From contig JACRLX010000057.1 of assembly GCA_016235165.1 (NCBI GenBank), positions 1 to 48,993 on the forward strand: a stretch of 48,993 bases of DNA, read 5' to 3'. Source of the stretch: Rhodocyclales bacterium (lineage in GTDB: Bacteria; Pseudomonadota; Gammaproteobacteria; Burkholderiales; Rhodocyclaceae). Below the pieces are notes generated by a model, which ran no database searches, was not told the DNA's origin, and saw only the letters and a list, made by a program, of their open reading frames with translations. Positions 11,287 to 25,502 of the stretch are shown here, piece after piece. Each line of letters opens with the position of its first letter. The first letter of the stretch is position 1. The position numbers and the translations under genes were made by a program.

Positions 11287-12597
11287 ATGACTGATCGTAA
11301 AGCACAAGCCGCTGCCCTGACCAAGGAATGGGCCGAAAATCCCCGCTGGAAAGGCGTCAAGCGCGGTTACAGCGCCGATGATGTCGTGCGCCTGCGCGGC
11401 ACTTTCCCGATCGAACACACCGTTGCCAAGCGCGGCGCCGAAAAGCTCTGGTCGCTGGTCAATGGCAGCGCCAAGAAGGGCTACGTCAACGCCTTCGGCG
11501 CCATCAGCGCCGGCCAGGCCATGCAACAGGCCAAGGCCGGCCTTGAGGCCGTCTATCTCTCCGGCTGGCAGGTCGCCGCCGACGGCAACACCTCGGAAAC
11601 CATGTACCCCGACCAGTCGCTGTATGCCTATGACTCCGTCCCGACCATGGTCCGCCGCATCAACAACACCTTCAAGCGTGCCGACGAGATCCAGTGGTCG
11701 CGCGGCATCGACCCGGAAAGCAAGGAATATATCGACTACTTCCTGCCCATCGTCGCTGACGCGGAAGCCGGTTTCGGCGGCGTGCTGAACGCCTTCGAAT
11801 TGATGAAGAACATGATCACGGCCGGTGCCGCCGGCGTGCATTTCGAAGACCAGCTCGCCGCTGTGAAGAAGTGCGGCCACATGGGCGGCAAGGTGCTGGT
11901 ACCGACCAGCGAAGCCGTCGAAAAGCTGATCGCTGCCCGTTTCGCCGCCGACACCATGGGCGTTCCGACCATCATCCTGGCGCGTACCGATGCCGAAGCC
12001 GCCAACCTGCTGACCTCGGACCATGACGCCAATGACAAACCCTTCATCACCGGCGACCGTACCCCGGAAGGCTTCTACCGCGTCAAAAACGGCCTTGAGC
12101 AATCGATCAGCCGCGGCGTCGCCTACGCCCCGTATGCGGACCTGGTCTGGTGCGAGACCGGCAAGCCCGACCTCGGCTTCGCCCGTGAATTCGCGCAGGC
12201 CGTGCAGGCCGCCTCGCCCGGCAAGCTGCTGTCCTACAACTGCTCGCCCTCATTCAACTGGAGGAAGAACCTCGACGACAAGACCATCGCCAAGTTCCAG
12301 GACGAACTCGCCGCAATGGGCTACAAGTACCAGTTCATCACCCTGGCCGGCATCCACATCAACTGGTTCCAGACCTTCCAGTTCGCCCACGCCTATGCCC
12401 GCGGCGACGGCATGAAGCACTACGTCGACATGGTGCAGGAGCCTGAATTCGCCGCGCGCGAGAAGGGCTACACTTTCGTCTCGCACCAGCAGGAAGTCGG
12501 TGTCGGCTACTTCGACGACGTCACCACCGTGATCCAGGGCGGCGCCTCGTCGGTGACCGCACTGCACGGCTCGACTGAGGAAGAGCAGTTCCACTAA
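11287..12597 (+). CDS. aceA: isocitrate lyase
   Basis: Cleaves isocitrate to glyoxylate and succinate, the first step of the glyoxylate bypass. The 436-residue length is that of the short bacterial class. The catalytic [13 protein letters not shown] segment (active-site Cys within KKCGH) is intact, with the GVHFEDQL metal-site region before it and the C-terminal EEEQFH. Competes for isocitrate with the two IDHs encoded upstream. Its own promoter, candidate operator and terminator indicate a monocistronic, regulated unit, in contrast to the aceBA operon of enterics. Confidence 0.98.
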
Positions 12598-12620
12598 GCG
12601 TCGCCGGAACATCTCGGCAC

Positions 12621-12654
12621 AAGCCGCAACGGGAAACCGTTGCGGCTTTTTTTT
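12621..12654 (+). terminator. aceA terminator
   Basis: A 12-bp stem AAGCCGCAACGG with a GAAA tetraloop and eight T after it; it begins 23 bases after the aceA stop. Confidence 0.95.
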
Positions 12655-12723
12655 GCGTTACAGTCGGCGCGACGCAACGACGGCATGACCATGTCCAACG
12701 AACGCAAACAGAAAGGAAAATCG

Positions 12724-13581
12724 ATGCTCTGGTCGGCACTCCAGATCGGCCTGCTGGCCTATGCCGGTCTGGCCGCGCTGATCTATTTCAGGCAGGACGC
12801 CCTGGTGTTCCAGGCGGCGATGGACCGCGGATTTCAGGCCACTCCGGCCAGCATGGGCCTGCGCTTCGATTCACTCACGCTCACCACTGACGATGGCGAG
12901 AAACTCGATGCCTGGCATGTTCCGGCCCGGAATACCGCTGGCGCGCGCGCCCTGGTGATCGTGTTTCACGGTAATGCCGGCAACGTCGGCCATCGCCTCG
13001 ATTACCTGCGCATGTTCCACGATCTCGGCTACGCCAGCCTGATCTTCGACTACCGCGGCTATGGCCGCAGCAGCGGTCAACCGTCGGAAGACGGCACCTA
13101 CCTCGATGCCGCTGCCGCGTGGCGCCACGGCACGCAAACGCTCGGCTATCCGGCCACCAAGATAGTCCTCTTCGGCGAATCGCTGGGCGCTGCGGTGGCG
13201 ACGCAACTGGCCGCTATCCAGCGGCCGGGAGCGCTGGTATTGGCATCAACCTTCACCTCGGTGCCTGACCTCGGTTCCGCGATCTACCCCTGGCTGCCGG
13301 TGCGCCTGCTCGCACGCATCCGCTATGACACACGCAAGCGCCTGGCAACGGTCGGCACGCCGGTGCTGGTGATTCACAGCCGAAGCGACGACATCATTCC
13401 CTTTACCCACGGCGAGCAGTTGTTTGCCGCCGCGAAACCGCCCAAGCGTTTCCTCGAAATCGAGGGTGGCCACAATGATGGCTTCGTCTTCGGTCGCGAA
13501 GCCTGGATCCGCGAGCTCGATGACTTCCTGCGCTTGGCCCTCGAACGACCCGCCGCTCATACGTCCCCGGCACTCCAGTAG
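12724..13581 (+). CDS. membrane-anchored alpha/beta hydrolase (BEM46/YfhR-like)
   Basis: A 285-residue serine hydrolase. An N-terminal hydrophobic segment (about residues 4-20, WSALQIGLLAYAGLAALIY) probably anchors it in the inner membrane with the catalytic domain outside or inside undetermined. The fold markers are the oxyanion HGNAGN, the nucleophile elbow GESLGAA, the acid in SRSDDIIPF and the base in GGHNDGF. Substrate unknown. The ATG at this start has AAGGA six bases before it; further in-frame ATGs upstream are possible but poorly placed. Its 3' end overlaps the convergent lysR gene by 25 bases. It follows the aceA terminator, so any co-regulation with aceA is uncertain. Confidence 0.85.
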   Translation: MLWSALQIGLLAYAGLAALIYFRQDALVFQAAMDRGFQATPASMGLRFDSLTLTTDDGEKLDAWHVPARNTAGARALVIVFHGNAGNVGHRLDYLRMFHDLGYASLIFDYRGYGRSSGQPSEDGTYLDAAAAWRHGTQTLGYPATKIVLFGESLGAAVATQLAAIQRPGALVLASTFTSVPDLGSAIYPWLPVRLLARIRYDTRKRLATVGTPVLVIHSRSDDIIPFTHGEQLFAAAKPPKRFLEIEGGHNDGFVFGREAWIRELDDFLRLALERPAAHTSPALQ

Positions 13582-14459
13582 GCAGCGTCGCGCCAGCGCA
13601 GCTTGAGCAAGTCGATGAACAATCGCACCCGCAGCGGCAGGTGACGGCGTTGCGGTACCACGGCATGGATGCCGACCGGCGGCGCGGCGAAATCATCAAG
13701 CACGGTTACCAAGCGCCCGGCTTTGATGTCCGCCCCCACCTCCCACAGCGAGCGCCAGGCCAGGCCCTTTCCTGCCACCACCCAATCATGCAGCACGGCG
13801 CCGTCATTGCATTCGAAGCCTCCACTGACTTTCACGACGCGCACCTCACCGTCGATGCGCAAGGTCCAGCCGCGTTGCTGGCGCAGCGACAGGCAGTTGT
13901 GCTCGGCGAGAAAAGTCGGCGCTGACGGCACGCCGAATTTGGCGACATAGGCTGGACTGGCGACCACCACGCGACGCATTTCACCGAGGCGGATGCTGAT
14001 CAGGCTGGAATCGGCCAGGTCGCCGATGCGGATCGCACAGTCCACGTTCTCTTCGACCAGATCGACCACGCGATCCGACAAGTCAAGGCTGACGGTGACC
14101 TCGGGGTTTTGTGCCATGAAATCCATCACCAGAGGCCCGACATGGCGCCGGCCGAAGCCGGCGGGGGCCGACACCTTAAGGTGCCCGCCAGGCCGGATGC
14201 CGCCGAGGCTGACGGCGCCCTCGGCATCGGCCAGTTCGCGCAGGATGCGCTGGCAATCTTCGAGGAATGCGGCACCCTCGAAGGTCAGCGAAATGCGGCG
14301 CGTCGTGCGCAGCAGCAATTTGGCACCAAGCCGCTCCTCCAAGGCATCGAGCCGGCGCCCGATGATGGCCGGTGTCACTCCCTCGACGCGCGCCGCCGCC
14401 GAGAGACTGCCACGACTTGCGACATTGACGAAGGCAGAAATCTGCTTGAACTGATCCAC
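13557..14459 (-). CDS. LysR-type transcriptional regulator next to malate synthase
   Basis: A 300-residue LTTR: winged helix-turn-helix in the first 60 residues (SLSAAARVEGVTPAIIGRRL) and a periplasmic-binding-protein-like effector domain of the CrgA/AaeR type. The start codon is GTG; homologues begin at MDQFKQ. It is divergent from aceB with about 100 bases between the genes, and a T-N11-A dyad lies just before its start. The classical arrangement suggests it controls aceB and itself; the effector (for example glyoxylate or a related acid) is not known from sequence. Confidence 0.9.
   Translation of the reverse strand: MDQFKQISAFVNVASRGSLSAAARVEGVTPAIIGRRLDALEERLGAKLLLRTTRRISLTFEGAAFLEDCQRILRELADAEGAVSLGGIRPGGHLKVSAPAGFGRRHVGPLVMDFMAQNPEVTVSLDLSDRVVDLVEENVDCAIRIGDLADSSLISIRLGEMRRVVVASPAYVAKFGVPSAPTFLAEHNCLSLRQQRGWTLRIDGEVRVVKVSGGFECNDGAVLHDWVVAGKGLAWRSLWEVGADIKAGRLVTVLDDFAAPPVGIHAVVPQRRHLPLRVRLFIDLLKLRWRDAAYWSAGDV
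13911..13935 (+). repeat. dispersed repeat, copy F (inside lysR)
   Basis: Carries AAAGTCGGCGCTG followed by ACGGCACGCCG on the plus strand, antisense to lysR, where the coding strand reads GVPSAPTF. Three mismatches to the best consensus. Confidence 0.35.
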
Positions 14460-14467
14460 TCGATACT

Positions 14468-14480
14468 ATTAGTAACTAAT
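14468..14480. promoter_or_regulatory. LTTR box between lysR and aceB
   Basis: ATTAGTAACTAAT is a perfect 6-bp dyad around one base and fits the T-N11-A pattern of LysR-type binding sites. It sits nine bases from the lysR start codon and about 84 bases before aceB. Confidence 0.55.
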
Positions 14481-14563
14481 CAATTGACCACATGGTAGCT
14501 TCTATATCCAATTTGGCAAGAATAGAATTTGACTACCCCTGCAACCCACCCAAGGAGTTCTCC

Positions 14564-16156
14564 ATGGCCCTGCCCACCGGCGTCCAGATCAAAGCCCCCG
14601 TTTCCGCCGAATACGCCACCATCCTGACGCCCGAGGCGCTGGAACTGGTCGCCAAGCTGCATCGCGCCTTCGAGCCGCGCCGTCAGGAGTTGCTGAAGAA
14701 GCGCATTGAGCGCCAGGCCCGCATCGACGCCGGCGAAATGCCCGACTTCCTGCCCGAGACCAGGCACATCCGCGAAGGCGACTGGAAGATCGCACCGCTG
14801 CCAAAAGCCCTGGAATGCCGCCGCGTCGAGATTACCGGCCCGGTCGAAGCCAAGATGATCATTAACGCCTACAACTCGGGCGCCGATTCCTACATGACCG
14901 ATTTCGAGGACTCCAACAGCCCGAAGTGGGACAACCAGATCCAGGGCCAGATCAATCTTTACAAGGCCATCCGCCGCCAGCTGAGCTTCAGGAACGAGGC
15001 CGGCAAGGAATACAAGCTCAACGACAAGATCGCCACCCTGCAGATCCGCCCACGCGGCTGGCACCTCGACGAGAAGCACGTGCTGATCGACGGCCAGCGC
15101 GTCTCTGGCGGCATCTTCGACTTCGCCTTGGTGTTCTTCCACAACGCCAGGGAACAAGTCGCGCGCGGCGCCGGTCCCTTCTATTACCTGCCAAAGATGG
15201 AATCCCACCTCGAAGCCCGCCTGTGGAACGAGATCTTCTGCATGGCACAGGACCACATCGGCATGCCGCGCGGCACCATCAAGGCCACAGTGCTGGTCGA
15301 AACCATCCTCGCCACCTTCGAAATGGAAGAGATTCTGTATGAGCTGCGCGAGCACAGCGCCGGCCTCAACGCCGGACGCTGGGACTACATTTTCTCGTGC
15401 ATCAAGAAGTTCAGGAAGAACAAGGATTTCTGTTTGGCCAATCGCGGCGCCATCACCATGGAAGTGCCCTTCATGCGCAGCTATGCGCTGGCCTTGGTCA
15501 AGGCCTGCCACAAACGCGGCGCCCCGGCCATGGGCGGCATGAGCGCGCTAATCCCGATCAAGGGTGATCCGGTGGCCAATGAGAAGGCGCTGGCCGGCAT
15601 CCGACACGACAAAACCCGTGATGCCAACGACGGCTATGACGGCGGCTGGGTCGCGCACCCGGGCCTGGTGCCGATCGCCATGGAAGAATTCGTCAAGGTA
15701 CTCGGCGACAAGCCCAACCAGTGGGAAAAGCAACGCACCGACACCTACGGCCCGAAGGACTGGCTGAACTTCCAGCCCGAGCAGCCGATCACCGAAGCCG
15801 GCGTGCGCAACAACATCAACGTCGGCATCCACTATCTCGGCTCCTGGCTCGCGGGTAACGGCTGCGTGCCAATCCACAATCTGATGGAAGACGCGGCCAC
15901 CGCGGAAATCTCTCGTTCGCAGGTATGGCAATGGGTTGTGTCGCCCAAGGGCAAGCTCGACGACGGCCGCAAGCTTACCGCCGAGATGGTGCGCCCGATG
16001 ATCGCCGAAGAACTCGCCAAGGTGAAGACCACCGTCACCGCCCAGGGCGAGAAGACCGAAACCTACGAGCAGGCAGCAGTCATTTTCGACAAGATGAGCC
16101 TGACCCCGGAATACCCCGAGTTCCTCACCCTGCCGCTGTACGAAGCGATGGAATAA
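14564..16156 (+). CDS. aceB: malate synthase A
   Basis: Condenses glyoxylate with acetyl-CoA to malate, completing the glyoxylate bypass. At 530 residues this is the A isoform (TIM barrel with C-terminal plug), not the longer GlcB. Recognisable are the substrate region around LQIRPRGWHLDEKH with the catalytic Arg, GPFYYLPKMESHLEARLWNE, the ATVLVETI segment holding the metal Glu, and GRWDYIFSCIKKF. The start MALPTGVQ is set by AAGGAG eight bases upstream; the frame is open further upstream but without a ribosome site. Divergent from the LysR gene and followed by its own terminator. Confidence 0.97.
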   Translation: MALPTGVQIKAPVSAEYATILTPEALELVAKLHRAFEPRRQELLKKRIERQARIDAGEMPDFLPETRHIREGDWKIAPLPKALECRRVEITGPVEAKMIINAYNSGADSYMTDFEDSNSPKWDNQIQGQINLYKAIRRQLSFRNEAGKEYKLNDKIATLQIRPRGWHLDEKHVLIDGQRVSGGIFDFALVFFHNAREQVARGAGPFYYLPKMESHLEARLWNEIFCMAQDHIGMPRGTIKATVLVETILATFEMEEILYELREHSAGLNAGRWDYIFSCIKKFRKNKDFCLANRGAITMEVPFMRSYALALVKACHKRGAPAMGGMSALIPIKGDPVANEKALAGIRHDKTRDANDGYDGGWVAHPGLVPIAMEEFVKVLGDKPNQWEKQRTDTYGPKDWLNFQPEQPITEAGVRNNINVGIHYLGSWLAGNGCVPIHNLMEDAATAEISRSQVWQWVVSPKGKLDDGRKLTAEMVRPMIAEELAKVKTTVTAQGEKTETYEQAAVIFDKMSLTPEYPEFLTLPLYEAME

Positions 16157-16174
16157 ACCACAGGCCGCCGACGC

Positions 16175-16199
16175 GAAAGTCGGCGCTGGCGACACGGCG
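16175..16199 (+). repeat. dispersed repeat, copy A
   Basis: One of six sites in the window sharing the core AAAGTCGGCGCTGG followed by a conserved CACGGCG-like end. This copy is intergenic, between the aceB stop and its terminator, and forms a 7-bp hairpin with the preceding CGCCGAC. Confidence 0.6.
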
Positions 16200-16211
16200 A
16201 GCGCAGCCGGA

Positions 16212-16247
16212 AACGGCGCCCGGAACGATCCGGGCGCCGTTGTTTTT
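16212..16247 (+). terminator. aceB terminator
   Basis: A perfect 13-bp stem (AACGGCGCCCGGA) with an ACGA loop followed by TTGTTTTT. Confidence 0.95.
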
Positions 16248-16442
16248 GGGCGACAGCACGACAAAACTCACACAGCTAGATAAGCAAGCTCTTATAGAAG
16301 TCTGCTTGATCCCCTGATCACAACAATCTCTTTTACGCCACCTGGAGCCCCTGCAATAATCTGCAAAAAAACCAGAAACATAACAAAAAAATGCAAGGGA
16401 GTTTCCCCGCGGCGCCAGTCACTTGATCGGCAGCATTCAGGA
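16248..16442 (+). promoter_or_regulatory. intergenic control region before the cytochrome module
   Basis: About 200 AT-richer bases without a gene. Visible are a degenerate copy of the aceA palindrome (TCTTATAGAAGTCT, 16290-16303), a perfect dyad TGATC-N4-GATCA at 16307-16320, and A-rich runs near 16365-16390. No convincing -35/-10 pair was recognised. The dyad resembles, but does not match, the TTGAT-N4-ATCAA consensus of FNR-type regulators. Confidence 0.35.
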
Positions 16443-16553
16443 ATGGATGTGCCGGTTGCGGCGTTTGGCGGTGGTGGCAATTCGATCTTCGGCATCAATA
16501 TCGCGAACGTGCAATACATCAACTTGGCCATTGGAATGCATGAACATGTCTGA
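16443..16553 (+). CDS. possible 36-residue hydrophobic peptide upstream of cytochrome gene
   Basis: A short frame encoding MDVPVAAFGGGGNSIFGINI and 16 further residues, ending in TGA eight bases inside the cytochrome gene. The Gly/Asn-rich then hydrophobic composition looks like protein rather than noise, and an AGGA precedes a GTG six codons' distance from the Gly run. It may be a leader peptide coupling translation of the cytochrome or the remnant of a larger gene. It could equally be chance; no family is recognised. Confidence 0.25.
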   Translation: MDVPVAAFGGGGNSIFGINIANVQYINLAIGMHEHV

Positions 16554-18225
16554 GAACTCACCCGGCGGCGCCTCTACTGGAACTGTAAAAAGTCTGTTTG
16601 GTTGGTTGAAGCGCCCGCCGCAGTGCTCAATGGCACGCATGATCATCATCGGCGTGCTGGGCGGTATCGTGATCTGGGGCGGCCTGAATACCGGCATGGA
16701 ATTCACCAACCGCACCGAGTTCTGCCTCTCCTGCCACACGATGCGGACCCCTTATGAAGAGCTTAAGAAAACAGTGCATTACAGCAACCGTACCGGCACC
16801 AGCGTCGGCTGCGCCGACTGCCACGTTGCCAGCAGCAAGGAACCCTTCGACTACGCACGCAAGCTGACACAAAAGGTATTCGCCTCCAAGGACGTGATCG
16901 GACAGATCCTCGGCACCATCGATACCCCGGAAAAATTCGAAGCCTATCGCCTGACCATGGCCAAACGAGTCTGGGCGCACATGAAGGAAACCGACTCCAA
17001 GGAATGCCGCAACTGCCACAAATTCGACAAGATGGATACCACCAAGCAGAAGGATCGCTCGGTGGTGAAGCACGAAGGCGCCCGCGAAGACGGCAAGACC
17101 TGCATCGACTGCCACAAGGGCATTGCACACAAGCCGGTGCATCACCTGCTGGAAGGCCAGACTGTCGCGGCGGCAGCCGTTCCCGCCGCAGAGGCGCCGG
17201 CCACGCCAAAGCCGGACGAAAAGGCTCAGATGCCGGCGGCAACCCCAACGGCGGCAGCAACAGCTGAAGCGCCCAAGCCGGTTTCAAAAATGGAGCCCGC
17301 GCCGGCGGCTGCGGCAAGCTCCAAAGTCGAAGCCGCACCCAAGGCCGAGGGCGGTAGCGCATCCGGCGGAACCGTGAAGGCAATGGACTGGAGCAAGGTA
17401 CCGACCCTGCCAGTAAAGGTCTTTTATCCGGGACAGGCGGCCTTGGAATGGGTGATGAACAAACCCGACCATTCTTCGGCGGCGGACATCATCGAGAAGA
17501 AGCGCCCTTGTGCCAAGTGCCACTCGGGCGACGCCAACGAGGTAGGTGCGGCAATCGTCGCTGGCAAGCCAGTGGGTGCCTCCAAGACCGTAATGGAACC
17601 CAACCCGCCGCCAGGCAAGGTGGGCTTTATACCAGTCAGCGTCCAGGCCACGCACGATGGCGAAAAAATCTACTTCCGCTTCGAATGGGTGCCGCCAAAG
17701 AACGGCGACAAGAAGCTCGATCCAAAAAATGAGGTCAAACTGACCATGATGTTCGATGGCGGCGGCACGGTCGATGGCAGCGAACTGAACGGCTGCTGGA
17801 GCACCTGCCACACCGACCTGCGTACCATGAAGGACGCCAAGGACGACAAGAAGACCAAGTACATCGCCGGAGCCGACCTCGCCAGTGGCAAGTTCATGGA
17901 CCTGATCCAGTTCCGCAGCGGCAAGGGCCAAGGTGTGGCGGATGGCTGGGTGGATAGCGAACGGCATATGACGGGGGGCAAGAGCCAGCTGAAGGCCGAG
18001 GGCCGCAAGGAAGGCAACAAGTGGGTGGTCATCTTCGAGCGCGCCATGGCCGGCGGCGGCAAGGGGGACCATTCCATCACCGCGGATAAGGTGTATAACT
18101 TCGGCTTCGCAATTCATGAGGACTTCACCAACGCTCGCTTCCACTACGTGTCGCTGGGCTACCAGTTCGGACTGGACAAGCCGAATCCGGCGGTGAAGAA
18201 CTACATCGACGTACAAAAACAGTAG
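16546..18225 (+). CDS. NapC/NirT-type tetrahaem cytochrome fused to ethylbenzene-dehydrogenase-like haem domain
   Basis: A 559-residue membrane-anchored multihaem protein. After a short N-terminus comes one membrane helix (about residues 31-48), then a NapC/NirT-like domain with four CxxCH sites (C60, C89, C154, C186). An Ala/Pro/Lys-rich linker (about 205-275) joins a C-terminal domain of the ethylbenzene dehydrogenase gamma type, which contains a fifth CxxCH (PCAKCH, C322) and an atypical CX3CH (CWSTCH, C417-H422). NapC-family proteins take electrons from quinol or return them to quinone. The fused domain probably exchanges electrons with a periplasmic partner. MSENSPGG is the chosen start; an ATG two codons earlier is equally possible, and the frame is open 39 codons beyond that. 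It heads a three-gene cluster with a dihaem cytochrome and a sulfide dehydrogenase flavoprotein. Domain names are from motif reading. Confidence 0.8.
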   Translation: MSENSPGGASTGTVKSLFGWLKRPPQCSMARMIIIGVLGGIVIWGGLNTGMEFTNRTEFCLSCHTMRTPYEELKKTVHYSNRTGTSVGCADCHVASSKEPFDYARKLTQKVFASKDVIGQILGTIDTPEKFEAYRLTMAKRVWAHMKETDSKECRNCHKFDKMDTTKQKDRSVVKHEGAREDGKTCIDCHKGIAHKPVHHLLEGQTVAAAAVPAAEAPATPKPDEKAQMPAATPTAAATAEAPKPVSKMEPAPAAAASSKVEAAPKAEGGSASGGTVKAMDWSKVPTLPVKVFYPGQAALEWVMNKPDHSSAADIIEKKRPCAKCHSGDANEVGAAIVAGKPVGASKTVMEPNPPPGKVGFIPVSVQATHDGEKIYFRFEWVPPKNGDKKLDPKNEVKLTMMFDGGGTVDGSELNGCWSTCHTDLRTMKDAKDDKKTKYIAGADLASGKFMDLIQFRSGKGQGVADGWVDSERHMTGGKSQLKAEGRKEGNKWVVIFERAMAGGGKGDHSITADKVYNFGFAIHEDFTNARFHYVSLGYQFGLDKPNPAVKNYIDVQKQ

Positions 18226-18269
18226 GTGCATCACCAGGCAGCAACTTTTCAAACCATGGAGGAAAAACA

Positions 18270-18848
18270 ATGACGATGAAGTGGAAAGGATGGGCGCTGG
18301 CCACCGGCGTCCTAACCATCTCGGCGATGGCGCAAGCCGCGCCGCCCTCGGCGGCGATGCTGTCCAACGCTTGCGCCGGATGCCACGGCACCAACGGCGG
18401 TAGCGCCGGACCGAGCATGCCCAGCCTGGCCAGCCAATCGAAGGAGGCCATCGTCGAGGCGATGAAGAAATTCAAGAACGGCGAGCGGCCGTCGTCCATC
18501 ATGGGGCGCATCGCGAAGGGCTACAGCGACGCGGATATCGCCACCATGGGCGAATTCTTCTCCAAGCAGAAGCTTCACGCCACCAATCAGACCGTCGATG
18601 CCGCGAAGGTCAAGAAGGGCGCGGGCTTGCAGGAGTCAAACTGCGGTCGCTGCCACATCGAGGACGGCAGGGAAGGCAAGGACGACACGCCGGTCATGGC
18701 CAGCCAATGGCTGCCCTATCTGCATATGCAGATGGAGCTCTACCAGTCAGGCAAGCGCAAGATGCCGGAAAAAATGGCGGAGAAGGTCAAGCCGCTGTCC
18801 AATGACGACATCGAAGCGCTGCTGCACTTCTACGCCAGCGTGAAATAA
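18270..18848 (+). CDS. periplasmic dihaem cytochrome c (c4/FccA type)
   Basis: A 192-residue exported cytochrome: signal peptide cut near AQA-AP (residue 23), then two similar domains each with one c-type haem (CAGCH at 35-39, CGRCH at 125-129). Candidate axial Met ligands are Met78 (SSIMGR) and Met143 (TPVMAS), as in cytochrome c4. In flavocytochrome c sulfide dehydrogenase the cytochrome subunit has this same two-domain form, and the next gene encodes the matching flavoprotein, so it is probably the electron acceptor subunit. GGAGG precedes the ATG; 44 bases separate it from the upstream multihaem gene. Confidence 0.85.
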   Translation: MTMKWKGWALATGVLTISAMAQAAPPSAAMLSNACAGCHGTNGGSAGPSMPSLASQSKEAIVEAMKKFKNGERPSSIMGRIAKGYSDADIATMGEFFSKQKLHATNQTVDAAKVKKGAGLQESNCGRCHIEDGREGKDDTPVMASQWLPYLHMQMELYQSGKRKMPEKMAEKVKPLSNDDIEALLHFYASVK

Positions 18849-18860
18849 GGGGGAAAGAAC

Positions 18861-20141
18861 ATGACACTGGATCGCAGAAGTTTTCTGAAGCTCGCTGGCG
18901 CCGGCGTCGGCGCTGCGGGTCTGCCGATGATTGGTCGCGCCGCGGAATTGATGCCCAAGGGCGCCAAGCGTGTGGTGGTGATCGGCGGCGGCTACGGCGG
19001 CACCATCGCCGCCAAGTACATTCGCATGATGGACAAGAGCATCGAAGTGGTGCTGATCGAGCGCAATGACCATTTCGTTTCCTGCCCGTTCAGCAATCTC
19101 TACATTGGCGGCGTGATCAAGGATCTCAATCCGCTGACCATCAAGTACGACAAGCTTGCCGCCAATCATGGCGTCACGGTAGTGCAAGCCGAAGTCACCG
19201 GCATCGACCCCGCCGGCAAGGTCGTGACCACCAGCAAGGGTACCGTCAGCTATGACCGCCTCGTGCTCTCGCCCGGCATCGATTTCCGTCTCGAGGAAAT
19301 GAAGGGCTATGACGCGGCAGCCATGGAAATCATGCCCCACGCCTGGAAGGCCGGCCCGCAGACGGTACTTCTGCGCAAACAGCTGGAGGCGATGAAGGAC
19401 GGCGGCAACATGGTCATGACCGTGCCGCTGGCGCCCTATCGCTGCCCGCCAGGCCCCTACGAGCGCGCCAGCATGGTCGCCCACTACCTGAAGAAGAACA
19501 AGCCCAAGTCGAAGCTCATCGTGCTCGATGCCAACCCGGACATCACCTCCAAGGGCGGCCTGTTCAAGAAGGGCTGGAAGGACAACTACGAGGGCATCAT
19601 CGATTATCGTCCGGCAAAGAAGGTCACCGAAGTCGAGCCTGGCAAGATGACGGTGCTGATCGAAGGCCTGGAAGATGTCAAGGGCGACGTCATCAACGTA
19701 ATTCCGCCGCAGCGCGCCGGACAGATCGCGGTTGCGGCTGGCCTGGTGGGTGACGATAAGAACTGGTGTCCGGTCAATCCGACCACCTTCGAATCGACCA
19801 AGCAGGCCGGCATCCATGTCATCGGTGACGCCTGTGTTGCCGGCGCCATGCCGAAGTCCGGCTATTCGGCAAATTCCGAAGCCAAGATCTGCGCGATGAA
19901 TGTCGTGGCGCTGATGAACGGCAAGGAAACCACCGAGATGTCGGGTATCAACACCTGTTACAGCTACATTACCGACAAGGAAGCTGTCAGCGTCGCGGCT
20001 GTGTATGCGGTCAAGGAAGGCAAGATCATTGCCGTGCCAAACTCGGGCGGTGTTTCCCCGGCGGATTTCTCCGCAGCCAAGACCGAGGCAATTTACGCCC
20101 AAAGTTGGCTGAAGAACATCCTCACCGAAATGTCGACCTGA
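18861..20141 (+). CDS. fccB: flavocytochrome c sulfide dehydrogenase, flavoprotein subunit
   Basis: A 426-residue FAD protein that oxidises sulfide to zero-valent sulfur in the periplasm. A Tat signal is present (DRRSFLKLAG). The FAD-binding VVVIGGGYGG follows. Three cysteines match known functional positions of the Allochromatium enzyme: C75 (SCPFSN, covalent FAD attachment), and the redox pair C195 (YRCPPGPYERA) and C366 (NTCYSYI). All are intact, so sulfide chemistry is likely rather than a degenerate homologue such as SoxF-like or nitrile-type proteins, though SoxF cannot be excluded. It lies 12 bases after the dihaem cytochrome gene and is followed by a strong terminator. No sox genes are seen nearby. 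Confidence 0.9.
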   Translation: MTLDRRSFLKLAGAGVGAAGLPMIGRAAELMPKGAKRVVVIGGGYGGTIAAKYIRMMDKSIEVVLIERNDHFVSCPFSNLYIGGVIKDLNPLTIKYDKLAANHGVTVVQAEVTGIDPAGKVVTTSKGTVSYDRLVLSPGIDFRLEEMKGYDAAAMEIMPHAWKAGPQTVLLRKQLEAMKDGGNMVMTVPLAPYRCPPGPYERASMVAHYLKKNKPKSKLIVLDANPDITSKGGLFKKGWKDNYEGIIDYRPAKKVTEVEPGKMTVLIEGLEDVKGDVINVIPPQRAGQIAVAAGLVGDDKNWCPVNPTTFESTKQAGIHVIGDACVAGAMPKSGYSANSEAKICAMNVVALMNGKETTEMSGINTCYSYITDKEAVSVAAVYAVKEGKIIAVPNSGGVSPADFSAAKTEAIYAQSWLKNILTEMST

Positions 20142-20157
20142 GTCGGCCGCTGTACCG

Positions 20158-20193
20158 AAAAACAAACCCTGCCGCGGCAGGGTTTGTTTTTTT
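20158..20193 (+). terminator. terminator of the cytochrome/sulfide dehydrogenase cluster
   Basis: A 34-base perfect palindrome centred on CCGCGG, with GC-rich core, flanking A-run and a T-run of seven. It can act in both directions, also ending dut transcription (minus). Confidence 0.92.
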
Positions 20194-20220
20194 ATGATGC
20201 CGGCAATGCTACCGGCCGAC

Positions 20221-20676
20221 TTACTTGTGGCCGGTACTACCGAAGCCGCCGGCCCCACGTTCGCTTGCAGGGAACTCGTCGACAAGGTTGAACTTAACCT
20301 GCACCACGGGAACGACAACCAGTTGCGCCAGTCGATCGAGGGGATTCAGCGTGAAGGTATCGTGACCACGATTCCACGTTGAAACAAAAATCTCGCCCTG
20401 ATAATCCGAATCGATCAAACCGACCAGATTGCCGAGCACGATCCCATGCTTGTGACCGAGGCCCGAGCGCGGCAGGATCATGGCTGCATAGCCGGGATCG
20501 GCGAGATGCACCGCCATGCCGGTGGGGACCAGAATGGTTTCACCGGGATGGATCTTGAGCGCCACGTCGATGCAGGCACGCAGGTCGACGCCGGCGGAGC
20601 CAGCCGTAGCGTACGCGGGAAGGTAGCGTTCGTCCCTGAGTCGCGCATCGAGTATCTTGAGGTCAATCGTGGCCAC
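20221..20676 (-). CDS. dut: dUTPase
   Basis: Hydrolyses dUTP to dUMP and pyrophosphate, keeping uracil out of DNA and supplying dTMP synthesis; works as a homotrimer. The 151-residue protein shows the motifs [31 protein letters not shown] and the C-terminal [11 protein letters not shown] that closes the active site. The start is GTG ([10 protein letters not shown]) with GGAGA six bases before it, inside the end of coaBC (14-base overlap). A coaBC-dut pair is a common arrangement in Proteobacteria. Confidence 0.97.
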
Positions 20677-21865
20677 GGAATGTCTCCAGCAGTTTGGCGA
20701 GATGGGCAACGATACCAAGCGCCACGTCGGACTTGGCCGCCGCCGGCAGCGGATGGGCCCCGGCTGCGTCGAACAGAGTGACGGCATTGCTGTCGCCGCC
20801 AAGCCCGTCCTGGACCAGGTTGCCAACGACCATGCCGAGTTTCTTGGCGACACGCTTGCCTTCGGCATACTTCGCCAGGTCGCGGCTTTCCGCGGCAAAG
20901 CCAACACAGAACGGGGCTTCGCCGCTTGCCGCGACTTCGGCCAGGATGTCGGAATTCGGCTCCAGCTCCAGCGTGAATGCGCCACTGCCCTTCTTTATCT
21001 TGTGCTCGGAAGCATCACGCGGCCGGTAATCGGCTACCGCGGCGACACCGATGAAGACGTCCTGGCCGGGCACGGCCGCCAACACCGCGTCCCGCATCTG
21101 GGCGGCGGAACGGACATCGATTCGCTGCACGCCACGGGGCGTCGGAAGATTCACCGGCCCGCTAATCAGCGTCACCTCGGCCCCGGCGGCAACACAGGCG
21201 CGCGCCAGGGCAAAGCCCATCTTGCCGGAACTCAGGTTGGTCAGGCCGCGCACCGGGTCGAGTGCTTCGAAGGTCGGTCCCGCGGTCAGCAGGACGCGTT
21301 TGCCCCGCAGCAGCTTCACTTGCATCGAAGCGTGCAACTCCTCGAACAATTCCGCGGCTTCCAGCATGCGCCCTTCGCCAACCTCGCCGCAGGCCTGCTC
21401 GCCATGAGCCGGCCCGAGAATGCCGATGCCATCAGCACGCAACTGCGCCAGGTTGCGCCGCGTCGCCGGGTTCTCCCACATCTGCCGATTCATCGCCGGA
21501 GCCACCAGCAGCGGACAATCGCGCGCCAGGCAAAGCGTGGTTAGCAGGTCGTCAGCAAAGCCATGCGCCAGTTTGGCCATGAAATCGGCGGTGGCGGGTG
21601 CCACCAGCAAGGCGGCGGCTCCACGCGTGAGGTCGATGTGGGCCATGCCATTGTCCATGCGCTCGTCCCACAGCGCCTGCCACACCCGGCGACCGGTAAG
21701 CGCCTGAAAGCTTGCCGGGCCGACAAACCGGGCGCCCGCGGCGGTCAGCACGACATCGACCTCGGCATCGGCCTTGACCAACAGCCGCGTCAGTTCGGCA
21801 GCCTTGTAGGCGGCGACACCGCCGGTGACGCCGAGCACGATTCGCCGACCCTGAAATTCGCTCAT
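20663..21865 (-). CDS. coaBC: bifunctional phosphopantothenoylcysteine decarboxylase/synthetase
   Basis: Two consecutive steps of coenzyme A synthesis in one 400-residue protein. The N-terminal CoaC half binds FMN ([14 protein letters not shown]) and holds the catalytic [12 protein letters not shown] and [11 protein letters not shown] with its cysteine. The C-terminal CoaB half begins at [17 protein letters not shown] and includes HKIKKG with the catalytic lysine. Followed by dut with a 14-base overlap; divergent from radC with 46 bases between starts. Confidence 0.97.
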
Positions 21866-21911
21866 GACATTAAAATCCCGCCAAACGGCGACCAGCGGGG
21901 GATTCTAAACC

Positions 21912-22592
21912 ATGGCCATACGCGATTGGCCGGAGGCCGAGCGGCCTCGCGAACGGCTTGCGCGGCAAGGTGCGACAGCACTTTCCGACGCCGAACTGCT
22001 GGCGATATTCCTGCGCGTCGGCCTGCCCGGCAAGAGTGCGGTTGATCTCGCGCGGGAGCTGCTCGACAGCTTCGGCGGCGATCTGGCGAGTCTGGCCCAC
22101 GCCAGCGTCAAGCAGCTTGCCCGCCTGCGTGGCATCGGCCCGGCCAAGGCGGCCCAACTCGCGGCCGCGCTGGAACTGGCGCGACGCGCGCTTGCAGTGC
22201 CGCTCAAAGCCAGGGATGCATTGGCGTCGCCCGAGGCGGTCCGCGACTGGTTGCGCCTGGCCCTGGGACAAACCCCGCACGAGGTTTTTCTGGCGCTGTG
22301 GCTGGATGCCCAGAATCGCCTGATCGCCAGTGAGGAGCTGTTCAGCGGCACCCTGACCCAGACCAGCGTGTATCCGCGCGAAGTGGTCAAGCGCGCGCTT
22401 GCGCACAACGCCGGTGCGGTGATCCTGGCCCACAACCATCCCTCGGGGCTTGCCGAGCCATCCCGCGCCGACGAAGTGCTTACTTCGTCGCTGAGACAGG
22501 CGCTGGCAATGATCGACGTAAAGCTGCTGGACCATTTCATCGTCGCCGGCAGTGCGCGGCCGCTTTCCTTCGCCGAACGCGGCCTGCTGTAA
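21912..22592 (+). CDS. radC: RadC family JAMM-domain protein
   Basis: A 226-residue protein with an N-terminal helix-hairpin-helix ([16 protein letters not shown]) and a C-terminal MPN+/JAMM metal site (LAHNHPSG followed by an Asp in SRAD). Despite the name, a DNA repair function is not established for the family. Upstream of ribosomal genes rpmB-rpmG, the common proteobacterial order; the coaBC gene is divergent. Confidence 0.95.

Positions 22593-25417: not shown

Positions 25418-25502
<85 letters not shown>

Follow-up and report, generated by a model that had tools for sequence, protein, structure and literature searches.

The nirSTB cluster of Stutzerimonas (Pseudomonas) stutzeri encodes the tetrahaem cytochrome NirT and the dihaem cytochrome NirB (PMC8954225, PMC13086519), and a fused NirTB located beside nirS in Halomonas sp. 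2A has been published and interpreted as two parts working together (PMC13086519). Flavocytochrome c sulfide dehydrogenase (FCSD) is considered to hand over its electrons at cytochrome c level and to yield less energy than sulfide:quinone oxidoreductase (SQR), which feeds the quinone pool (PMC4288042). Here, we analysed a stretch of 48,993 nucleotides from a Rhodocyclales bacterium (contig JACRLX010000057.1, called the window for simplicity), in which three genes on the same strand (positions 16546-20141) encode a fusion of a NapC/NirT domain with an EB_dh domain, followed by FccA and FccB. On balance, we lean towards the view that this locus is a module in which electrons would pass from sulfide via FccB, FccA, the NirB-like part of the fusion and its NapC part to ubiquinone.

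The first gene product was assigned by Pfam to NapC/NirT (PF03264, residues 28-198, E 6.4e-64) and EB_dh (PF09459, residues 281-536, E 7.1e-31), the two domains being joined by an Ala/Pro-rich linker roughly 80 residues long (approximately 201-279). Six haem motifs are present, i.e. CXXCH at residues 60, 89, 154, 186 and 322 and CX3CH at residue 417. The N-terminal part exhibits the hallmarks of NapC/NirT proteins, namely an N-terminal membrane helix (residues 29-56 in the predicted model) and four CXXCH motifs, and the EB_dh domain those of NirB cytochrome c-552, namely two haems bound by one CXXCH and one CX3CH. In a fold search with the model, the nearest structures were ethylbenzene dehydrogenase (2ivf_C, E 1e-8) and chains of nitrite oxidoreductase (7b04). 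The mean confidence (pLDDT) of the model was 67.5, with much of the NapC haem part below 50 and low confidence in the linker, which is too poor for docking. No solved structure covering the whole fusion was found in the PDB, where just a weak match to NrfH (E 3.7e-4) was obtained. A preliminary description of the locus, made from the DNA letters, had called the protein a NapC-EbDH fusion. The fusion itself is confirmed, but the EbDH label does not hold: since the more distant NapC-EB_dh pairs mostly follow nirS as in nirSTB, the protein is better described as a NirT-NirB fusion placed before fccAB, its EB_dh half being, as judged from sequence, of the NirB kind (the dihaem cytochrome c-552 of nirSTB clusters). 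Two other assignments were rejected. For a gamma subunit of a type II dimethyl sulfoxide reductase (ethylbenzene dehydrogenase), molybdenum and iron-sulfur subunits were lacking among the ten proteins scanned (positions 11287-22592), and for membership in an nirSTB cluster, nirS was absent among the ten neighbouring genes scanned.

The sequences of the two following gene products identify them as the subunits of FCSD, in agreement with the preliminary description, which had proposed them as its likely subunits. FccA carries two CXXCH motifs (residues 35 and 125) behind an N-terminus that by eye resembles a signal peptide, and its best PDB matches are haem subunits (3vrd_A, E 1.4e-44; 1fcd_C, E 1.4e-40). 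FccB is complete and contains the Pfam domains FCSD_central (E 2.2e-46) and FCSD flavin-binding (E 2.6e-19), together with a twin-arginine translocation (TAT) signal scoring above the NCBIfam cut-off and just below that of Pfam; its best PDB matches are 5n1t_A (E 7.4e-124) and 1fcd_A (E 2.8e-109). Cys75, Cys195 and Cys366 of FccB align with 1fcd residues 42, 161 and 337, which we take to be the cysteine linking flavin adenine dinucleotide (FAD) and the redox cysteine pair, and they are kept in 69 of 69 FccB proteins linked to an EB_dh gene. A flavoprotein of the SQR family was dismissed for FccB, because the FCSD families score best and the NCBIfam SQR model gave 111 bits at a cut-off of 525. 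The same genome contains a second FCSD-like flavoprotein (L135, G000:C38:42301-42618; 31% identical to FccB) in which, by eye, a leucine replaces the FAD-linking cysteine; no FccA match lies in the 951 bases upstream of it.

To define relatives, species genomes were scanned with the EB_dh half by exact peptide patterns, yielding 93 relatives of which the best 80 were kept; 71 of these (L054-L124), with an EB_dh part at least 55% identical, are called close. Wherever the close loci extended far enough, NapC was located directly upstream of EB_dh (69/69), either fused to it (19) or as a separate gene (50), FccA directly downstream (68/68), and FccB was present (66/66). A sample of 121 genomes of the window's family, some of them common to the species-genome set, gave a similar picture: some EB_dh match was found in 62 genomes, and in the 19 with an EB_dh at least 57% identical the Fcc genes always adjoin it, seven of these pairs being fused. 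Eleven further loci of this sample (EB_dh 45-48% identical) have NirS in ten cases and Fcc in none, and one locus from another family (L040, genome G024) is Fcc-linked with an EB_dh 50% identical. Because NirT and NirB are split into two genes in most close relatives, the four-part operon NapC, EB_dh, FccA and FccB is, as far as gene order can tell, a real unit. The claim that the three genes of the window form one chain is thereby well supported by the order conserved in every close relative with room, and by the single clades of both partners (see below); a physical electron chain through the three proteins would follow from this reading. Measured against the refuting condition set in the preliminary description (homologous fusions mostly lacking fccA/fccB neighbours), the association holds for fusions among close relatives, all 19 of which have FccA next to them. 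It does not hold for nine distant relatives (L125-L133, 35-38% identical), which are all fused but have no FccA or FccB match, eight of them following NirS; their hosts are Gammaproteobacteria, an Emcibacter and an unplaced Pseudomonadota bin. Beyond the order, 35 of 321 genomes of the class (the window's own included) gave a match, and none of those listed exceeded 51% identity except that of the own genome.

The phylogenies separate the Fcc-linked pairs from their Nir-linked relatives. Quick trees without bootstrap were calculated for EB_dh (117 rows, 105 of them different, omitting the copies L165, L173 and L078 and the short, cut or very distant L053, L047, L122, L123, L124 and L189) and for FccB (omitting L063 and L110, whose loci contain no FccB, identical copies and proteins below 330 residues). 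The Fcc-linked EB_dh proteins form one clade (89 of 117 rows, support 100) with the Nir-linked rows outside. Likewise, the linked FccB proteins form one clade (69 of 97 rows, support 100) with the other 28 FCSD rows outside, where 'not linked' denotes no EB_dh match in the short stretch read, as 27 of these 28 have less than 1000 bases upstream (552-993); three linked rows were recognised with just 945-987 bases upstream. The fused rows group inside the Fcc clade (26 rows, support 94), and parsimony requires two label changes, one of which is L069, a contig starting inside the gene. As the fused rows group and the second change is this contig-edge row, a single fusion within the Fcc-linked clade is the simplest reading and probably what happened; the fusions of L125-L133 are separate from it. 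The NirT-NirB pair may have become tied to the fccAB operon once in Betaproteobacteria, with the two parts fused later in the Sulfuritalea line.

Residue conservation was determined after omitting 15 duplicate rows and L046. Four CXXCH motifs are present in 74 of 74 Fcc-type NapC parts, and the combination of CXXCH and CX3CH in all EB_dh parts of the Fcc type (77/77) and the Nir type (25/25). In an alignment with 2j7a_C, residues M66, K110 and D116 of the fusion correspond to Met49, Lys82 and Asp89 of NrfH, which we take to be quinone-site residues. The places of M66 and K110 are kept in both types, and position 116 is Asp in 74 of 74 Fcc-type and Glu in 23 of 23 Nir-type sequences. The same partition is seen at position 103 (Tyr in 74/74 versus Trp in 23/23). 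Among 34 further loci, some of them contained in the earlier sets, position 116 carries Glu in 28 cases, Asp in three (the Fcc-linked L011, as well as L022 and L027) and Ser in three. Close to the haems of the NirB-like part, Lys occupies positions 306, 319 and 429 in 72, 76 and 72 of the 77 Fcc-type rows, as opposed to Gly, Gly and Pro in 24, 24 and 25 of the 25 Nir-type rows. These differences would fit alterations of the quinone site and of the docking face; neither the direction of electron flow nor the partner follows from them.

The Nir-type relatives provide the background against which the Fcc-linked pairs stand out. The genome of the window itself contains a second NapC-EB_dh pair on contig C38, after a gene for cytochrome cd1 nitrite reductase. 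The possibility that this copy is also a fusion was rejected, as two stops lie between its genes, which makes it a split nirTB. Beside the more distant pairs, this second copy included, no FccB was found in the stretches read, and most of them follow nirS. With the NirS of L046 or L044 as reference, matches (45-100% identical) lie immediately upstream of the pair in L039, L041-L044, L046, L048, L049 and L125-L132, and NirS also precedes it in L184-L188 and L190-L194, as far as these short loci reach (L165-L194 extend just about 1.5 kb past the match). No NirS match was found at L045, L047, L133 and L189, and for L053 the context was 'none'; L048 and L194 lack an intervening NapC, their EB_dh coming straight after NirS. 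Ten proteins near distant pairs were scanned, and seven of them contain a Cytochrom_D1 domain (L044, L046, L049, L041, L042, L039 and L043), the one of L042 looking like NirF because the cytochrome c part is missing. The domain was not detected in the protein of L045 or in another protein of L043, and the tenth is an EB_dh protein. L041 (G014:C46) is an exception to a clean split between Fcc and Nir contexts: a gene for an FccA-like dihaem cytochrome (34%) lies between NirS and a Nir-type NapC-EB_dh pair, possibly reflecting mixed use. The window's genome also encodes a third, distant EB_dh protein (L047, G000:C34:75668-77552; 29-33%), behind which lies a NapC-like gene (35%); the 17 kb read for this locus gave no match to NirS or Fcc.

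A photosynthetic reaction centre is encoded in four genomes of the family, two of which (G353 and G401, presumed Rhodocyclus) have EB_dh matches, two each. Their NirB was considered as the Fcc-linked kind and discarded, the EB_dh proteins being about 29-32% identical to that of the window. For these NapC-EB_dh pairs (L200-L203), the 15 kb read gave no match to FccA, FccB or NirS, and they constitute a third context for NirTB. Rhodocyclus has been described as having NirB without denitrification genes, a published puzzle with which this context agrees (PMC8954225). In four gammaproteobacterial genomes (G495:C1:658190-660295, G726:C89, G628:C20 and G509:C159), frames of about 920-1000 residues contain two tandem EB_dh repeats, NirB apparently being duplicated within one protein.

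The physiology of the carriers was addressed by co-occurrence, comparing the 19 Fcc-type genomes of the family sample (13 genus codes) with the 102 others. A dsrA match over the cut-off was found in 17 of 19 carriers versus 12 of 102 others, and soxB in 18 of 19 carriers (not in G320) versus 32 of 102 others (Fisher p 3e-11 and 2e-7, respectively, with genomes taken as independent, which they are not). Of the two remaining carriers, G300 has dsrA in pieces and G322 far relatives only. In the window's genome, dsrH lies beside dsrAB, a habit of oxidative sulfur metabolisers. A strong cytochrome d1 match was obtained for 17 of the carriers. In the remaining two, NirS was either not found (G334, just 85% complete) or represented by a doubtful match (G359, just 87% complete).

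In the module that we favour, FccB with its FAD would oxidise sulfide in the periplasm and pass the electrons to the dihaem FccA, which would hand them to the NirB-like dihaem domain in place of relying on soluble cytochrome c alone. This domain, tethered by a flexible linker to the membrane-anchored tetrahaem NapC/NirT domain, would supply the latter, which would reduce ubiquinone, i.e. a haem-wire version of sulfide:quinone oxidoreduction. We adopt this reading because, wherever the loci of relatives extend far enough, a cytochrome with a predicted quinone site is kept together with fccAB, and because the genomes concerned are rich in dsr and sox. The preliminary description had left two directions open, and the first of them, from sulfide to quinone, is plausible and the one we prefer. 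The sulfur/sulfide couple has a potential of about -270 mV. With about +100 mV for ubiquinone/ubiquinol (PMC13390432), electron transfer from sulfide to ubiquinone is downhill and the opposite is not. Our judgement is evenly divided on the more specific proposal of a second, haem-wired sulfide-to-quinone route, in which FCSD would have become a quinone-reducing complex by capturing a NirTB running in the opposite direction, the quinone site and the NirB-like haem faces bearing clade-specific changes. Several observations weigh against the sulfide-to-quinone reading. NapC/NirT proteins are usually described as oxidising quinol. The fusion scores 234.4 bits and thus stays under the NCBI cut-off of 310.6 bits for NapC/NirT (TIGR02161). 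FCSD occurs in 148 of 300 genomes of the order and is far commoner than FCSD with the NirTB pair, the Fcc-linked kind (EB_dh at least 50% identical beside FCSD) being found at five places in 150 genomes (G000, G020, G024, G067 and G083). A link to a quinol-fed nitrate reductase was considered and dropped, with narG over the cut-off in 4 of 19 carriers versus 32 of 102 others (Nap was not searched for). ImoA of Sideroxydans, a proposed quinone reductase, oxidised quinol when placed in Shewanella (PMC9600427), and cytochrome c is regarded as the sole partner of FccAB (PMC4288042).

The main rival, which we consider rather unlikely, is a quinol-to-cytochrome branch: NirTB would oxidise ubiquinol and load the same periplasmic cytochromes as FccAB, both feeding NirS, NosZ or oxidases, so that the operon would be shared for the sake of one cytochrome pool and no electrons would flow from sulfide to quinone. 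The usual direction of NapC/NirT proteins, the activity of ImoA and the position of the pair's relatives behind nirS all speak for it. It accords less well with the Fcc-linked pair being a separate clade tied to fccAB and not to nirS, with the two of 19 carriers (both incomplete genomes) in which a clear NirS is missing, and with an association that is with dsr and sox. It is improbable, in our estimation, that the NirB-like part is just a better docking cytochrome and NapC mainly an anchor, with electrons leaving FccA via soluble cytochrome c and the pair adding little. FCSD is indeed common without the pair, but four NapC haem sites and the quinone-site residues are kept, which an anchor would not need. 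The second direction offered by the preliminary description, a reverse reduction of sulfur compounds, appears very improbable. Here, quinol would feed NapC, the NirB-like domain and FccAB, and sulfur or polysulfide would be reduced to sulfide. The domain order does resemble that of NapC-fed periplasmic reductases, but ubiquinol cannot readily reduce sulfur at the potentials given above, and the presence of dsrA, dsrH and soxB in the same genomes argues for oxidation.

The boundaries of the genes and of the putative transcription unit (Table 1) agree with the coordinates and domains given in the preliminary description, as does its single terminator, for which one strong hairpin after fccB was found (0 of 200 shuffles were as good). 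The gaps are 44 bases between the fusion gene and fccA and 12 bases between fccA and fccB; purine-rich stretches precede fccA and fccB, and none is obvious before the fusion gene. The terminator scan returned seven sites versus 6.0 +/- 2.7 expected by chance, the hairpin behind the malate synthase gene having by far the longest stem, and the promoter scan two sites versus 1.0 +/- 1.0 by chance.

Table 1. Features of the NirTB-fccAB locus in the window.
Feature	Position	Strand	Details
NirT-NirB type fusion gene	16546..18225	+	559 aa; Pfam, haem motifs
fccA	18270..18848	+	192 aa; two CXXCH, PDB matches
fccB	18861..20141	+	426 aa, complete; Pfam, PDB matches
Intrinsic terminator of operon	20157..20192	+	fold -23.9 kcal/mol, z -6.1
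Terminator-like hairpin 3' of malate synthase gene, probable upstream border	16212..16241	+	hairpin scan
Possible promoter	16332..16360	+	9/12 consensus matches; weak

The module is flanked upstream by genes for isocitrate lyase and malate synthase (11287-16156) and downstream by dut, coaBC and radC (20221-22592). These flanks are common to many relatives, and the operon is therefore often in a stable chromosomal place; other relatives, e.g. the Thiobacillus bins L071, L075 and L076, do not have them. The sole Rfam match of the window at the gathering threshold is a tRNA gene (25418-25499).

In a group of sulfur-oxidising bacteria, sulfide electrons may thus enter the membrane quinone pool and not just small soluble cytochromes. 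If the module does reduce quinone, carriers such as Sulfuritalea could obtain a higher energy yield from sulfide and gain access to quinol-dependent enzymes, and for these organisms models derived from genomes would err in treating all FCSD as cytochrome-linked. The pair of the window resembles that of nirSTB in combining a tetrahaem NapC/NirT protein with a dihaem cytochrome c-552, adjacent or fused, and the haem motifs are the same as in the Nir-type relatives, which stood in for the Stutzerimonas and Halomonas proteins in this comparison. It differs in that fccAB follows and no nirS precedes it, in its clade, which is separate from the Nir-type rows, and in having Asp for Glu at the quinone-site place and mostly Lys for Gly or Pro at three positions close to the NirB haems. 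FccAB of the window resembles 1fcd, 3vrd and 5n1t in its flavin subunit with FAD and active-site cysteines, and 1fcd and 3vrd in its dihaem subunit, but unlike known FCSD it is accompanied by a membrane-bound cytochrome with a predicted quinone site and has its own FccB clade. With SQR the module would share the net reaction, as proposed, SQR being a membrane flavoprotein without haem. No description of an FCSD paired with NirTB was found in the open-access PMC literature searched, which does not prove that there is none. ImoA of Sideroxydans lithotrophicus ES-1 is similar in being a NirT-like tetrahaem cytochrome with a proposed route from donor to quinone pool (PMC9600427, PMC13390432), but its partners are the Mto iron-oxidation cytochromes and its tested activity is quinol oxidation. 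Whether NapC/NirT proteins can run backwards is a question raised for ImoA (PMC9600427), and the module constitutes a natural test of it. All of its parts are known; their combination appears to be new.

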